NCBI GenBank assembly: GCA_947495035.1
Contig: CANLXI010000025.1
Location: forward strand, 1 to 64,000
Reading direction: 5' to 3'
Source: an uncultured Granulosicoccus sp.
Lineage (GTDB): Bacteria > Pseudomonadota > Gammaproteobacteria > Granulosicoccales > Granulosicoccaceae
Length of the DNA stretch: 64,000 bases
Position numbers and translations under genes: made by a program. How positions within the stretch are numbered: the stretch's first letter is position 1; every line of letters starts with the position of its first letter. Below, in pieces: positions 47,591 through 56,459 of this stretch. The notes beneath the pieces were generated by a model. That model was not told the origin of the DNA and did not search any database. It saw only the letters and a program-made list of their open reading frames with translations.

Positions 47591-47902
47591 ATGACCGTAA
47601 GTCTCTACGCTGATCTGACATCTGCCAGCCTGTCGCAGACTCAGTCCCAATCACGCCCACTGCCACCTCCAGGTGTCGGAGGAGATAGTCCTCCCTCGCC
47701 TGCTTCTGCCGTTGACAACCCTGGCAGCGCTCTGCCACCCGAAACACGGGACTCTCTGTTCGCAGCCGTTGGGGAACTGCAGGAAGCAGGAGCTACATCC
47801 GATGAAATCAAGTCCTTTGTGGATAGCGAGCTGGAAGCCAACGGGGTTGATTTCACTGCCGGCCAGAATCGATCCGGACAACTCATCAACATCATGAGCT
47901 GA
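47591..47902 (+). CDS. Small hypothetical protein, 103 residues
   Basis: An ATG preceded by AGGAG at good spacing opens this frame. The N-terminal half is low-complexity, rich in Ser, Gln and Pro (L-S-Q-T-Q-S-Q-S-R-P-L-P-P-P). The C-terminal half is amphipathic: L-F-A-A-V-G-E-L-Q-E-A-G-A, then I-K-S-F-V-D-S-E-L-E-A-N-G-V. It has no cysteine, signal peptide or membrane helix. I do not recognise the family. It diverges from gltA. Whether it relates to the protease operon 750 bp downstream is unknown. Confidence 0.6.
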   Translation: MTVSLYADLTSASLSQTQSQSRPLPPPGVGGDSPPSPASAVDNPGSALPPETRDSLFAAVGELQEAGATSDEIKSFVDSELEANGVDFTAGQNRSGQLINIMS

Positions 47903-48651
47903 GCTGTCCGGGTTCAAGCCTGATCGAAGCTGCCCGGGCCGCCCTTGCCATGCAATGGGGCAACTGCCTGCTGACAAGGACGCAGCACCCGGGCAGCAGC
48001 TGCCCCTACCCACCAGGTAAGCCCCCTCTTTCGAACGACAGCATCACCACCGATCTGGCACATCAGGACTTCCTGACACTGCTCATGTGCACCAGGCTTT
48101 CGCGGGCTCGGCACTCAGATGCAACGAGAACAACTCCTCAGCATCCGACACGCCCCGCACGCCCCGCACGCCCCGCACGCCCCGCACGCCCCGCACGCCC
48201 CGCACGCTGCACGGCTGCACGCTGCACGGCTGCACGCTGCACGGCTGCACGTCATACGTTCAGTAGTTGCATTATCAGAGATACAGACTGACTTCCAGCG
48301 CACTTGCAGCATACTGGTCCTTGTCTGTCGGAAAGCACCCACTGCGGCGAAGAACAGTTACAGGCTACCGACAGCGCCCTGCCCTTTTGGCTGAAATGCA
48401 GGCACTATTCATGCGTTTGTATAGCGCATTGCACCCTGCCTGCCTGCACTCGACTAAAGTCAAGTGGAATTCAAAAGCCGCCTCGTCAATCCTGTTGCCA
48501 CTGCAAGCCCAGCACGGGTCTTAACAGTAACAGAGAAACTCGCAATCGGCGCCCATACTGCATGAATACCGCGCAATCTACAGGTTGCAACGACTGATTG
48601 AATGCAGGCATGTCACCGAATGGCATTCCAGTGAAAACAAGGAGAGTATTG
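47903..48651. other. 749-bp region without a supported gene, with two adjacent tandem arrays
   Basis: Short open frames here lack ribosome sites and are driven by the repeat arrays at 48151-48249. The segment 48250-48650 is spacer that should contain the promoter of the protease operon. I see no clear -35/-10 pair and no strong hairpin. Confidence 0.55.
48151..48249. repeat. 9-bp (6 copies) then 15-bp (3 copies) tandem repeats, intergenic
   Basis: CGCCCCGCA repeats six times from 48151 to 48204. It is followed without a gap by three copies of CGCTGCACGGCTGCA to 48249. Both units are perfect. The junction shares CGC...GCA ends, suggesting the second unit arose from a variant of the first. Confidence 0.95.
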
Positions 48652-50163
48652 ATGAAACGTCAACAAGCAACATCCGGACTTACCCACACGCGAAGTCGTC
48701 TGTCGGTTCTGGTAGCCGGCGTCCTGGCTGCCGCCAACGTCGCGGCGGACGATGTCGACAAGATGATTTCGAGTCTCGAGGAGACACTGCAACCGGCCAA
48801 GCCAACCAAGGCAACGCCCAGAGCGCTGGACCAGGCCGTGGCGGCAAGAGAGGGCCTTGGCTTCAGAAGTGATCGTCGCTATGTGGCACAGCTACTGGAA
48901 AACCCCGAGCGATTCAATGCGCTGGCAGGACCGTTGACCGGCGGTCATCATGCCACCCCCGAAGAAGTGGAAGCCTTGAAAATCCGACTGGTACTCCAGG
49001 AAGACGCGATAGCGCTGGCACCAGCATTGAGTGAAGATCCGGATTTTGCCGGCATCTACATCAGTACCCGAAACATCATCAACATCGGTTTTACCTTCAA
49101 CGCCGAGAAAAAAGTCGAGGAGTTGCGACAGAAAGTCCGGCTTCCGGATCGCGTGCAGGCATTCCAGGCAAAGCGTTCCATGGGCGAGCTGGAGAATGAC
49201 AAGAATCGTGTGGTCGACATGAGCGGCGAACTCACCAGCAAAGGCATCGTGGTGTCGCAGGTTGCCATCGATATCATCAGCAACCGCCTCAAGATCGGTG
49301 TCGTCAAACTCGACCCCAACAAGCTCGAGACCATACAGCAGCTGTTTGGCGATGTGGACATCGTCGACAAGCCACTCAATGAAGTGGAAAATCGCAGTGA
49401 TACGGCGACCCCCATGCGAGCCGGTGTACGCATCACCAATGCTGCCGGAGGTAGCTGTACATCGAACTGGAAAGCACAGGATCGAACCACCGGTGAAATG
49501 GTGACCATCACGGCTGGACACTGTGTTTCCGATGTCAACGGCACATTCGGTGGACCGGGTGCAGACTTCTTTCAAGGCAGCACCAGCACCGGTGCGTCTC
49601 GCCTGATCGGAACCTCGGATCAAACCACCTGGGTGTTTCCCGTCCTCAATCTGTTCACGGGTGCTCGCACAGGCTCGGGTGAAGTCGATGCGCTTCGCGC
49701 CCCGTTGGAAAGCAACATCTTTTCCATGCCTTCGCTGTATGCCTACGATAACGCCAATGCCGGTGTCTTCACCGATGCTGAACAGGCGCGCGTTGGCGCA
49801 GTGGATGGCACGGTCGTCATCGGCAGTGTGGTGTGCAGCGGAGGACAGTTCAGCCCGGGCAATCAGGTGGGCGGCAGCGGCTGGAAGAACTGCGGCTCTG
49901 TCAATGCCGTCAACGTTGCCAATGCTTTCACCCGTCAGTCAGGTTCCGCAGATGTATTCACGGTTCTGAATACCAATGAAGCAACCTACACGGCCATCGG
50001 TGGTGACAGCGGCGCCCCCACCTGGCGTATTGGCTACAACTCGACGCAGGGCTGGCATGGTATTGCCGTTGGTCATCATTCCGGCGGACCAGCCGGCGCG
50101 GAGATCTTCAATGATATCGAGCGCGTCGAGGATGCGCTCAATGTCGACGTCAGATTCTACTGA
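48652..50163 (+). CDS. Secreted trypsin-like (S1 family) serine protease with propeptide
   Basis: A 503-residue protein from the ATG at 48652, which has AAGGAG upstream. The signal peptide is L-S-V-L-V-A-G-V-L-A-A-A-N-V-A-A. Residues about 33-255 look like a long pro-region of the streptogrisin/alpha-lytic type, which usually acts as folding chaperone. The protease domain (about 258-503) has His290 in T-A-G-H-C, Asp346 in E-V-D-A-L as probable acid, and Ser453 in G-G-D-S-G-A-P. Cys269/Cys291 and Cys395/Cys414 are placed for two disulfides. It is the first gene of a tight operon with ACP, GNAT and FAAL genes (11-bp gap to the ACP). Cleavage preference is unclear. Confidence 0.85.
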   Translation: MKRQQATSGLTHTRSRLSVLVAGVLAAANVAADDVDKMISSLEETLQPAKPTKATPRALDQAVAAREGLGFRSDRRYVAQLLENPERFNALAGPLTGGHHATPEEVEALKIRLVLQEDAIALAPALSEDPDFAGIYISTRNIINIGFTFNAEKKVEELRQKVRLPDRVQAFQAKRSMGELENDKNRVVDMSGELTSKGIVVSQVAIDIISNRLKIGVVKLDPNKLETIQQLFGDVDIVDKPLNEVENRSDTATPMRAGVRITNAAGGSCTSNWKAQDRTTGEMVTITAGHCVSDVNGTFGGPGADFFQGSTSTGASRLIGTSDQTTWVFPVLNLFTGARTGSGEVDALRAPLESNIFSMPSLYAYDNANAGVFTDAEQARVGAVDGTVVIGSVVCSGGQFSPGNQVGGSGWKNCGSVNAVNVANAFTRQSGSADVFTVLNTNEATYTAIGGDSGAPTWRIGYNSTQGWHGIAVGHHSGGPAGAEIFNDIERVEDALNVDVRFY

Positions 50164-50174
50164 GAGACTCTGCC

Positions 50175-50465
50175 ATGACACCGAATCAGACCATCAATGC
50201 CATCGAGTCGCTGGACAGCTTCTGCGCCAGAATCTCACAGGCAATCTCGAGTGACGGGTTCGATGTCAGAGTTCAACCCGGCGATCATCTGGTTGATGAC
50301 GCCGGGGCGGATTCTCTGACCGTGCTCAGGTACGTGTCCCATCTGCAAGCCTCAGGGCTGCCAATCGACCTGAACGAATTCGATACCACATTGCTTGACA
50401 CTCGCGTCGCCTATCAGAAGTGGTTACAGAACGTCGCTGTGAACAATCAGGGAGAACGAACATGA
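50175..50465 (+). CDS. Acyl carrier protein
   Basis: A 96-residue carrier protein. The phosphopantetheine attachment serine is Ser47 in G-A-D-S-L-T-V, preceded by acidic residues as in most ACPs. A further helix reads L-R-Y-V-S-H-L-Q. It lies between the protease and a GNAT gene and overlaps the latter by 4 bp (ATGA). With the FAAL downstream it is the expected acceptor of an activated fatty acid. It is distinct in sequence from AcpP of fatty acid synthesis. Confidence 0.82.
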   Translation: MTPNQTINAIESLDSFCARISQAISSDGFDVRVQPGDHLVDDAGADSLTVLRYVSHLQASGLPIDLNEFDTTLLDTRVAYQKWLQNVAVNNQGERT

Positions 50466-51094
50466 CCGGACAAGCACCGAACCTTCACCTGGCTTCCAGC
50501 AAGAATCACACGGTACAACTGGACAATGATCCGCAGGGCGTCATTCTGCAGGGAAAATACGCACGGCTACGGCCACTTGCCCAGAATGACTACGGGTATT
50601 TCTACAATCTGAGCCTGTCAGCCGAGAACAACGCACGCTGGCGCTACCGGGGTACCACCCCCAGTCCGGAGCGTTTCGTCACGGATCTGTGGAATGGCGT
50701 ACAGGCTCAGTTCGTCATTGAAACTCCTGAGCCGCGACAACGCGCCGGTCTGGTCGTGGCCTACAATGCCGATATGGCCAATGGCACTGTCTATCTGGCT
50801 GCCCTGGTCGACAATGACTATCACCGCAAGGTGTGGCCGATGGAAGGCATACTGCTGTTCGTTGACTATCTGCTGCAGAACTGGAACTTTCGCAAGGTCT
50901 ACGCCGAGACACCAGAGTTCTGTGCAGCACAGTTTTCCTCGGGTGCAGGTACCTACTTCGAGGAAGAGGGCCGCTTGACGCAGCACCAGTTCTTTCAGGG
51001 AAAATACTGGGATTACATCACCTACGCCCTGACCCGGGAGCGATGGGAGACCCATGGCAAGGCAGCACTGCATCGTTTTTCGGAAATGAGCTAG
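50462..51094 (+). CDS. GNAT-family acyl/acetyltransferase in FAAL operon
   Basis: A 210-residue GNAT-fold protein from the ATG at 50462, overlapping the ACP stop. Family features are L-R-P-L-A-Q-N-D-Y near residue 38, a W-R-Y-R-G-T motif, and the region V-D-N-D-Y-H-R-K-V-W-P-M-E-G-I-L-L. The cofactor-loop sequence is atypical: there is no clear R/Q-x-x-G-x-G/A signature. This fits an enzyme that may take acyl groups from ACP rather than acetyl-CoA, but that is inference. The FAAL gene follows in 9 bp. Confidence 0.75.
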   Translation: MTGQAPNLHLASSKNHTVQLDNDPQGVILQGKYARLRPLAQNDYGYFYNLSLSAENNARWRYRGTTPSPERFVTDLWNGVQAQFVIETPEPRQRAGLVVAYNADMANGTVYLAALVDNDYHRKVWPMEGILLFVDYLLQNWNFRKVYAETPEFCAAQFSSGAGTYFEEEGRLTQHQFFQGKYWDYITYALTRERWETHGKAALHRFSEMS

Positions 51095-51103
51095 GAGATG
51101 CCG

Positions 51104-52750
51104 ATGGATACCCTGGCCGATGCCATCGACGCCCTGTGCGAAGCCGAACGCGGATTCCATTTCACCTCACGTTCGCAGCCAGATTCGACGATCAGCCACC
51201 TGGCGCTGCGCTCGGATGTCAGACGTCTTGCTCGCAAACTTCGCTTGCCGGAAGATGCACCAGGTGACAGACTTGTCATTGCCGTACCGGACCAGAGAAC
51301 CTTCCTGCTACTGTTCCTGGCAGTGATTCGTGCGGGTCTGGTGGCTGTACCGGTGCCTCCGCCTGGCCTGACGGCAGATCTGACGGCCTACAGTACCGAC
51401 ATTGAACGCATACGCAGAGTCTGCGGCGCCAGACGCATACTGACCACAGATTCCCTGCACCAGCGTCTGCAGGCCAACCACCCACCGGGAAGCCTTGTCC
51501 CCTGGTCGGAGCTACAGGCCGGTGAAGAAACCGGGGAACTGGGCAGACCAACCACCTCCAGTACGGCACTGATCCAGTTCACCTCTGGCAGTACCGGCTC
51601 TCCGAAGGGGGTCGAGCTGACTCATGGCAACGTCATCAGCAATGCACGGGCCATCGAGCAGGCACTGGCGATCGATCCAGTGCATGATCGTGGCTTGAGC
51701 TGGCTGCCCTTTCATCATGACATGGGCTTGATGGGGTTTCTGATCGCCCCCGTGCTGATTCAGGCATCCACCTGGTATCTGCCTCCCATGGAATTCGCAA
51801 GGCAACCGCGACGCTGGCTGGAGTTGATGAGTCAGACTGAAGCGACGATCTCCTATGCACCCAACTTCGCCTATGAGATGGCGGCGAGATCTGTGAAGAA
51901 AGCGCAATGCCGGGACTGGAACCTGTCTGCATGGCGAGTGGCCGGGTGTGGGGGCGAACCTGTCTTGCCGGAGGTGCTGGAACATTTTGCGCGACAACTG
52001 GAACCGGCAGGCTTCAACAGGAAGGCCTTTGTACCAAGCTATGGATTGGCCGAGGCCACCGTGGCAGTTGCCATATCAGCGCCACAGCGTGGAGTCATTC
52101 TGCAGCGCGCCCGTTCTGCCAATGGTGACGGCACCACGGCGGTTTCCTCGGGACGAGCGATCAAGGATACCGCTATCCGTATCGTCTCCTCCGACAACAC
52201 CGAGCTGGCGGATGGCAAGGAGGGCGATATACAGGTGAGAGGACCAGGCGTTGCCCGACGCCTCTGGTGTGAAGACGGTCCACAGCCATCAACCCGTCAC
52301 GATGGTTGGCTGAGCACCGGAGACAATGGATTCCTGTATCAGGGAGAGCTGCATGTCACAGGGAGAAACAAGGAAACCATCGTGATCAACGGTCGAAACT
52401 ACCATGCACATGACATTGAGGAGTGCGTGCAAGATCTGGAGGGAATACGTCGTGGTGGAATCGTCGCCTTTGGCAGACCGCAGGACGGCAGCGAGCAACT
52501 CGTGCTGGTTGCAGAAAACCGATCGGTGCTTGCCATGGACACGATTCAACACCAGCTACGAGCAGCGATACGCCAACGACTTGGACTGGCAGTTGCTGAT
52601 ATCGTCATCGTCGAGCGTGGCATCATATCCAGAACCACCAGCGGCAAGATCAGGCGTCATGCGCTCAAACAGGCCTATCTCGCCGGCGAATTTACACGAT
52701 TGTCATCAGACTCTCTGGAATCCGCCAGACCCGCTGTTGCCTGTACCTGA
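51104..52750 (+). CDS. Fatty acyl-AMP ligase (FAAL)
   Basis: Activates a fatty acid as acyl-AMP and delivers it to a carrier protein. From the ATG at 51104 (AGGAG 7 bp upstream) it is 548 residues. The ATP loop is F-T-S-G-S-T-G-S-P-K-G-V. The FAAL-type W-L-P-F-H-H-D-M-G-L-M-G motif, Y-G-L-A-E-A-T and S-T-G-D-N-G-F are present. The catalytic-lysine region near the C-terminus reads R-T-T-S-G-K-I-R-R. No condensation, ketosynthase or thioesterase domain is fused. It is the last gene of the protease-ACP-GNAT-FAAL operon. Confidence 0.9.
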   Translation: MDTLADAIDALCEAERGFHFTSRSQPDSTISHLALRSDVRRLARKLRLPEDAPGDRLVIAVPDQRTFLLLFLAVIRAGLVAVPVPPPGLTADLTAYSTDIERIRRVCGARRILTTDSLHQRLQANHPPGSLVPWSELQAGEETGELGRPTTSSTALIQFTSGSTGSPKGVELTHGNVISNARAIEQALAIDPVHDRGLSWLPFHHDMGLMGFLIAPVLIQASTWYLPPMEFARQPRRWLELMSQTEATISYAPNFAYEMAARSVKKAQCRDWNLSAWRVAGCGGEPVLPEVLEHFARQLEPAGFNRKAFVPSYGLAEATVAVAISAPQRGVILQRARSANGDGTTAVSSGRAIKDTAIRIVSSDNTELADGKEGDIQVRGPGVARRLWCEDGPQPSTRHDGWLSTGDNGFLYQGELHVTGRNKETIVINGRNYHAHDIEECVQDLEGIRRGGIVAFGRPQDGSEQLVLVAENRSVLAMDTIQHQLRAAIRQRLGLAVADIVIVERGIISRTTSGKIRRHALKQAYLAGEFTRLSSDSLESARPAVACT

Positions 52751-55942: not shown

Positions 55943-56245
55943 TCAGTCCTCCCAGCGATAGCCATTGTCCGGTTCAGGTGTCTCGTCAGGAGACACCTCG
56001 GATTTCCTGCCTCCCCGCTTTTCCCAGTAATCATCGTTCGGATAGGCACTTTCACTGTGCTTGCCCTGATCCTTTTCATCATCCGGGTGCTCATTCTCGG
56101 CACTCTTGATGTCGGATCTGCCGGACTTGGCTGTTCCATCCACGCTGTTCGCGTTATCGGCGTTATCGGCGTTGTCGGCGTTGTCGGCGTTGTCCGTCAA
56201 TCTGCTGCGCTTGTCATCTCGAGCCTTGTTGTCAGGAATACTCAT
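55943..56245 (-). CDS. Small acidic repeat-containing hypothetical protein
   Basis: About 100 residues from the ATG at 56245, which has an AAGAGG ribosome site; an ATG three codons upstream is possible. Residues about 17-31 are perfect Asn-Ala-Asp repeats from 9-bp DNA units. The rest is highly charged, with a Y-W-E-K-R-G-G-R-K-S cluster and a C-terminal Y-R-W-E-D. It has no signal peptide and is probably disordered. I do not recognise a family. It converges with the hybrid kinase. Confidence 0.5.
   Translation of the reverse strand: MSIPDNKARDDKRSRLTDNADNADNADNADNANSVDGTAKSGRSDIKSAENEHPDDEKDQGKHSESAYPNDDYWEKRGGRKSEVSPDETPEPDNGYRWED
56151..56194. repeat. 9-bp tandem repeat, 5 copies, coding
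   Basis: GCGTTATCG (two copies) followed by GCGTTGTCG (nearly three). On the minus strand it encodes Asn-Ala-Asp repeats in the small acidic protein. The unit is a multiple of three. Confidence 0.9.
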
Positions 56246-56343
56246 CGTCTTCATGCCTCTTGCGTCGACGTCAAACTATCCTGATTCGATGGCAACCACT
56301 CCAGAATCTGACATTTCTGCAGATATTACAATCCAACGTTTCA

Positions 56344-56459
56344 CCCAACCGCACTACCCAACCGCACTACCCAACCGCACTACCCAACCGCACTACCCAA
56401 CCGCACTACCCAACCGCACTACCCAACTGCACTACCTGTCTGCACTACCCGTTCGCACG
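56344..56459. repeat. 13-bp tandem repeat, 9 copies, intergenic
   Basis: CCCAACCGCACTA repeats perfectly six times (56344-56421), followed by three increasingly diverged copies. It ends 15 bp before the stop of the PLD-like gene, thus in its 3' untranslated region. The 13-bp unit is not a multiple of three, in keeping with a non-coding place. Confidence 0.95.

Follow-up and report, generated by a model that had tools for sequence, protein, structure and literature searches.

Introduction

Bacterial protein lipidation is known chiefly from the Lgt/Lsp/Lnt lipoprotein pathway and from a few dedicated cases. Here we describe four adjacent genes in a 64,000-nt stretch of DNA from an uncultured Granulosicoccus sp. 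(contig CANLXI010000025.1, positions 1 to 64,000; hereafter the window), which encode an exported S1-type serine protease precursor, a stand-alone acyl carrier protein (ACP), a SpeG/RimL-like GNAT acyltransferase, and a fatty acyl-AMP ligase (FAAL). We tentatively propose that the last three form a portable fatty-acylation module that is dedicated to the co-encoded exported protein and works by acyl-ACP-dependent N-acylation. No description of this four-gene set was found by title or abstract in the open-access literature searched.

Several described systems resemble parts of this locus. HlyC and RtxC are reported to be GNAT-like, to take the acyl chain from acyl-ACP without the usual CoA contacts, and to acylate lysines of an exported toxin (PMC8339906). 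The module shares with them a GNAT-like fold and a gene that adjoins that of an exported protein, and their use of acyl-ACP is a precedent. The module GNAT, however, is SpeG/RimL-like by sequence and comes from another GNAT branch, often with its own ACP and ligase, and its partners are not RTX toxins but proteins with Sec- or Tat-type export, frequently proteases. We liken the module to RtxC/HlyC by mode of working, from their descriptions, and not as a member. N-acyl amino acid synthase genes are reported to be linked to PEP-CTERM/exosortase loci, and these FeeM-type synthases likewise combine a GNAT-like acyltransferase with an ACP and a link to exported-protein genes (PMC7293339). In contrast, the window GNAT searched alone gives no Pfam or NCBIfam match at 1e-3, including none to a FeeM/NAS or exosortase-acyltransferase model, and the partners of the module form no sorted PEP-CTERM set as far as seen, no exosortase profile search having been made. 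The goadvionin acyltransferase is reportedly a GNAT that puts a fatty acyl chain on a ribosomal-peptide amine. Selidamide GNATs are also described as placing fatty acyl chains on amines of ribosomal peptides (PMC9505594). At the module, no precursor peptide or RiPP maturases were noticed, and an exported protein of 190-500 aa is found instead. Dedicated acylation of an exported protein is further described for IacP-SipB, where IacP is a dedicated ACP and SipB is modified at a cysteine (PMC5279801), and for AatD-CexE, where AatD acylates an N-terminal glycine during secretion (PMC7943197); the abstracts of these two reports mention neither a GNAT nor a FAAL.

Results

The distant relatives of the window GNAT are mostly actinobacterial, and together they form a family. 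GNAT matches are present in at least 17 of 296 sampled genomes from the class of an Acidimicrobiales genome, at least 3 of 299 from the class of a Solirubrobacterales genome, at least 4 of 200 from the family of Nonomuraea, and at least 2 of 66 from the class of a Nitriliruptorales genome, all but one being low-scoring in each of the last two groups; these counts are lower bounds because part of the candidates were scored, for example 10 of up to 45 per genome in the Acidimicrobiales class. Of 41 loci fetched, 28 reach a profile score of 140 bits, a limit that we chose ourselves, and make up the core (29 with the window). Of the 13 loci left out (15 match rows below 140 bits), L084, L085, and L086 resemble true members, with the GNAT split across two frames. 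By eye, the neighbours of L084 and L086 look exported or resemble lipoproteins.

A profile search, counting same-strand matches up to 6 kb away, finds an ACP, fused or nearby, in 21 of the 28 core loci (22 of 29 with the window). The profile was built from 15 ACPs to which 14 of the 21 detected loci contributed, and the ACPs of L012, L063, L065, L066, L069, L074, and L078 were found outside this set. ACP-GNAT fusions occur in 11 loci, with the ACP C-terminal in seven (L015, L016, L063, L065, L066, L069, and L078) and N-terminal in four (L071, L074, L075, and L080). NCBIfam finds both GNAT- and ACP-type models in the fusions of L016 and L071, and weakly in L075, all below cut-off, while the L019 ACP passes Pfam, barely above cut-off. 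Among the 13 dropped loci, the ACP search is positive in L086 only. The fusions in both orders suggest that the ACP is the likely source of the acyl chain, and they support the proposal of the initial annotation that the GNAT may transfer an ACP-bound chain. As a separate observation, the GNAT at L083:9693-10517 has an N-terminal ACP-like stretch, seemingly without the serine, and adjoins an exported-looking protein with three near-identical repeats.

An AMP ligase lies within 5 kb in 11 of the 29 loci (10 by similarity to the window FAAL and L070 by Pfam), on the opposite strand in L067, L068, and L097. The absence of a condensing enzyme, noted at first for the operon, extends to the core: a pattern search of the 28 core loci (431,560 bases, with flanks of at most about 10 kb and some contigs much shorter) finds no ketosynthase (KS) or condensation motif, and the largest called gene encodes 1184 aa. 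A nonribosomal peptide synthetase/polyketide synthase (NRPS/PKS) cluster context was therefore rejected, or at least made less likely. Other genes seen near the GNAT include a ring-hydroxylating-oxygenase-type protein between the GNAT and the AMP ligase (L064:8496-9431; KshA_C, 1.2e-16), an SCP-2-type lipid-binding protein (L068:4729-5100; PF02036, 4.6e-8), and an SCP-2-type look-alike without a Pfam match (L018:8656-9036).

All four genes are found again, in unchanged order, in two Granulosicoccus loci (L012 and L013) and in one from Candidatus Thiodiazotropha (L014), and the 11-bp and -4-bp spacing is kept in L012 and L013. In the protein database, homologues of the GNAT and the protease lie on contigs of equal length for 13 of the 21 GNAT entries that reach 4 kb, as do those of the GNAT and the FAAL (13 of 21) and of the protease and the FAAL (13 of 26), and all three meet on 8 contigs, equal length of the longest contigs serving as a proxy for the same contig. 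This count used 34 of the 57 GNATs, all 33 proteases, and 34 of the 64 FAALs among the database matches. The repeated order together with the shared contigs indicates that the four genes are linked beyond chance. GNATs of the window type appear to be rare: they were found in at least 3 of 48 genomes of the window's order, at least 1 of 369 sampled genomes of its class (the match being the window's own genome), and at least 1 of 146 genomes of the family of the Thiodiazotropha genome, and 8 of 58 matches of a contig pattern scan were confirmed.

Same-strand genes flanking the module within 450 bp look exported in 15 of 36 cases, by a crude signal-peptide rule that errs both ways. For control genes from these loci, which encode 80 aa or more and lie over 4 kb from the module, the figure is 10 of 151 (Fisher p 1.0e-6). 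A same-strand flank within 450 bp is present in 23 of the 29 loci, 15 of which have an exported-looking one; the L012 and L013 proteases were scored as non-exported because the gene finder placed their starts too late. The partner is an S1 protease in the window, L012, L013, and L014, and a distant S1-like protease in L075 (hhalign probability 88%, E 3e-6 to the window protease family; Trypsin 0.02). Peptidase A4 partners pass the cut-off in L077 (3.7e-17) and L076 (5.4e-5), while a peptidase A4 fragment in L016 (0.0026) and matrixin-like partners in L070 (0.0019) and L019 (0.003), both with HExxHxxGxxH by eye, fall below it. The partners in L065, L069, and L098 look exported and have no Pfam match, and lipoprotein-like genes with a lipobox lie in or beside L015, L019, L064, L065, and L070. 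One genome (G133) carries five core GNAT copies (L072-L075 and L077) that are 37-51% identical, except for the 92% pair L073/L075, and have different neighbours; its L077 locus also encodes a pro-kumamolisin domain, i.e., a further secreted protease.

These results bear on two earlier suggestions. The four genes had been taken to be a functional unit, which stands insofar as the ACP, the GNAT, and less often the AMP ligase stay together in distant species; a unit tied specifically to an S1 protease was rejected, because the neighbours elsewhere vary and are other exported proteins. The protease had been assigned either the processing of an N-acylated peptide or the role of the target itself. 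That the neighbour elsewhere is a different exported protein speaks against the former and favours an exported protein as acceptor, here possibly the protease. The diverged GNAT copies of G133 beside different exported proteins point the same way, and the frequent position of module relatives in distant bacteria beside an exported-protein gene suggests that this protein may receive the fatty acid.

Two further features of these neighbourhoods were noted. In the A4 or A4-like neighbours L076:4743-6104, L077:10301-11569, and L079:10830-12062, the last without a Pfam match, K-x-W-K-x-A opens the signal region. In Nonomuraea (L018:7579-10185), the genes around the GNAT encode a cysteine-rich protein with Tat export, a protein that by eye resembles thioredoxin, and a MauE protein (Pfam 3e-11), a set that recalls methylamine dehydrogenase maturation.

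The window GNAT is assigned as SpeG/RimL-like both by profile and by structure model, and the modelled protein has a GNAT fold. The family hallmark is RGxTPSPE. GNATs usually carry an acetyl-CoA loop with the motif Q/RxxGxG/A, which the initial annotation had found wanting here. This motif is absent from the window GNAT and its gammaproteobacterial relatives, which have HRKVWP at about residues 121-126, where SpeG carries the CoA loop. Loss of the loop was dropped as a hallmark of the entire family because a loose loop-like pattern fits 7 of the 29 core members, against 4 of 14 lower-scoring comparison rows, and its absence is thus a weak mark.

The window ACP has its predicted phosphopantetheine serine, Ser47, in ADSL (DSL motif; about 50313-50315), and it aligns with the remaining ACPs of the GNAT-family loci with the serine kept; searched alone, it has no Pfam or NCBIfam match. 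The FAAL matches Pfam AMP-binding at 4.4e-54, and its top NCBIfam model is a fatty acyl-AMP ligase, at 402.7 bits, which is below the 600-bit cut-off of the model. FAALs are described as having a FAAL-specific insertion/helix and a blocked CoA pocket (PMC8460268). Against solved structures, the window ligase matches 3pbk with E 3.1e-78 and FadD23 with 2e-64, and CoA synthetases with only 2e-27; the three top rows (7r7f/e/g) are labelled just polyketide synthase, and the closest labelled ones are FAALs. By these comparisons the ligase appears closer to FAALs than to CoA ligases.

The protease has a signal peptide at about residues 1-32 (by eye) and a long pro-region that ends at about residue 245, followed by the catalytic domain. 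The triad His290/Asp346/Ser453, in TAGHC and GDSG contexts, is conserved in alignment A3, and so are all four cysteines (269, 291, 395, and 414). No Pfam or NCBIfam match was obtained for the protein, nor any match of its profile to PDB sequences. In model comparison, the pro-region resembles that of alpha-lytic protease (3pro_C, TMt 0.61, E 1.7e-3). Foldseek searches with the model return NAL1 (E 3.5e-5, TM 0.26) as well as S1 proteases, for example 2sfa (E 3.6e-3, TMt 0.52), with the catalytic domain modelled at low confidence (mostly pLDDT <60).

The coordinates of the four genes are given in Table 1.

Table 1. Positions of the four genes in the window
Gene product	Position	Strand	Length
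Exported S1-type serine protease precursor	48652-50163	+	503 aa
Stand-alone ACP	50175-50465	+	96 aa
SpeG/RimL-like GNAT acyltransferase	50462-51094	+	210 aa
Fatty acyl-AMP ligase (FAAL)	51104-52750	+	548 aa; 550 aa with start at 51098

The spacing first reported for this strand is confirmed, with 11 bp between the protease and the ACP, a 4-bp overlap between the ACP and the GNAT, and 9 bp between the GNAT and the FAAL. The alternative FAAL start is an in-frame ATG directly abutted by GGAG. Consensus scans show no clear separate promoter or terminator in the operon (3 promoter-like sites versus 2.1 on average after shuffling, and 5 terminator-like sites versus 3.6); a promoter-like site at 49364 falls within the protease gene, and a terminator-like hairpin at 50920-50932 (+) falls within the GNAT gene. 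The single transcript that had been asserted from the spacing is therefore likely, as judged from these scans.

The genome carrying the window is 7.16 Mb. The operon is preceded by a gap of ~750 bp with tandem repeats at 48149-48251 (9-bp CACGCCCCG and 15-bp units), and ~260 bp separate its 3' end from the gene-finder start of a hybrid histidine kinase-like protein (by appearance). Further 5', a 103-aa S/Q/P-rich open reading frame (ORF; 47591-47902, +) has a 68% identical BLAST match in L012, a partial, shorter look-alike in L013, and no match in L014. More tandem arrays, of 9 and 13 bp, lie at 56151-56194, within a short minus-strand ORF, and at 56343-56450. An Rfam scan of the window gave no match at gathering scores.

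Discussion

Our preferred reading, to which we give a probability of roughly 45%, is that the ACP, GNAT, and FAAL form a portable fatty-acylation module dedicated to the exported protein encoded with them. The FAAL would convert a fatty acid to acyl-AMP in the cytoplasm and then load the ACP on its phosphopantetheine arm. From the ACP, the GNAT would move the acyl chain to an amine of the still unfolded exported partner, either at the N-terminus or on the side chain of a lysine. At the window locus the acceptor would be the S1 protease precursor, acylated before export, and the lipid may help to hold the protease at the membrane or cell surface. Only slightly less probable, in our view, is a wider reading in which a portable GNAT-ACP(-FAAL) unit serves as a general bacterial protein-lipidation route, acting on its co-encoded partner before export and re-targeted repeatedly, both to proteases that differ in catalytic type and to further exported proteins.

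A number of observations weigh against the preferred reading. No ACP was detected in 7 of the 28 core loci (L018, L072, L073, L076, L077, L079, and L098), among them L073, which has an apparent broken ACP remnant and a GNAT 92% identical to that of L075 from the same genome, and 18 of the 29 loci have no AMP ligase within 5 kb. By the crude export rule, 14 of the 29 loci have no exported-looking flank, and the gene calls are crude as well. The matrixin-like neighbours and the L016 A4 fragment are cut or without a clear signal peptide in these calls, and so their export is taken from their family. The partners share no obvious acceptor motif. Among the matches listed for 14 genomes, three of four peptidase A4 proteins lie away from the GNAT (two in G071 and one in G357) and that of G133 adjoins it, this count being a lower bound because the genome-wide search missed the L076 A4 protein that passes Pfam. 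In the same genomes, 7 of 11 matrixin-like matches, mostly below cut-off, are not near the GNAT (six genomes); the other four are two in G219, roughly 2.5 and 8.5 kb away on the same contig, and the sole ones of G074 and G289.

The chief rival, which we regard as unlikely yet serious, is small-molecule synthesis. Here the GNAT would be a FeeM-like N-acyl amino acid (or polyamine) synthase, the ACP and FAAL would supply the chain, and the exported proteins would act with the secreted lipid, on the pattern of the N-acyl amino acid synthase genes linked to PEP-CTERM/exosortase loci. Among solved structures, those nearest to the GNAT belong to spermidine (polyamine) acetyltransferases; the substrates of these enzymes are small molecules, and this counts against a protein acceptor. 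A small amine as acceptor would also explain why the partners have no common motif. The different GNAT copies of G133 beside different exported proteins are harder to explain with one diffusible product.

We consider it improbable that the substrate of N-acylation is a small peptide or a RiPP-like precursor, which the exported protease would then trim or release. The selidamide GNATs show that enzymes of this fold can fatty-acylate ribosomal peptides, as described in the cited report (PMC9505594), and a lower-scoring GNAT relative (L099:8422-12478) adjoins an ATP-grasp-like gene and a short ORF, which look graspetide-like by eye. Against this, inspection of the core loci by eye revealed no short precursor gene that recurs, no dedicated search having been made, the 103-aa upstream ORF of the window does not extend to L014, and the proteases beside the module vary in type. 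Equally doubtful is the absence of any functional link, with the module acting elsewhere in the cell and the neighbours placed by chance or genome habit: the varied partners, the loci without an exported-looking flank, the further secreted proteases of G133-like genomes, and the A4 and matrixin-like matches of the 14 genomes, most of which lie away from GNATs, fit it, but the excess of exported-looking flanks over controls from the same loci and, in the gammaproteobacterial branch, the fixed gene order with its conserved spacing in L012 and L013 do not.

If the product were a small molecule, we would be dealing with N-acyl amide loci, so far unrecognised, that are linked to secreted proteins. 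If the fatty-acylation of exported partners is true, an ACP-fed portable module found with exported proteins in distant phyla would represent a further route of bacterial protein lipidation. A direct test would need only three enzymes and one substrate, and the module may be of use for lipidating chosen proteins.

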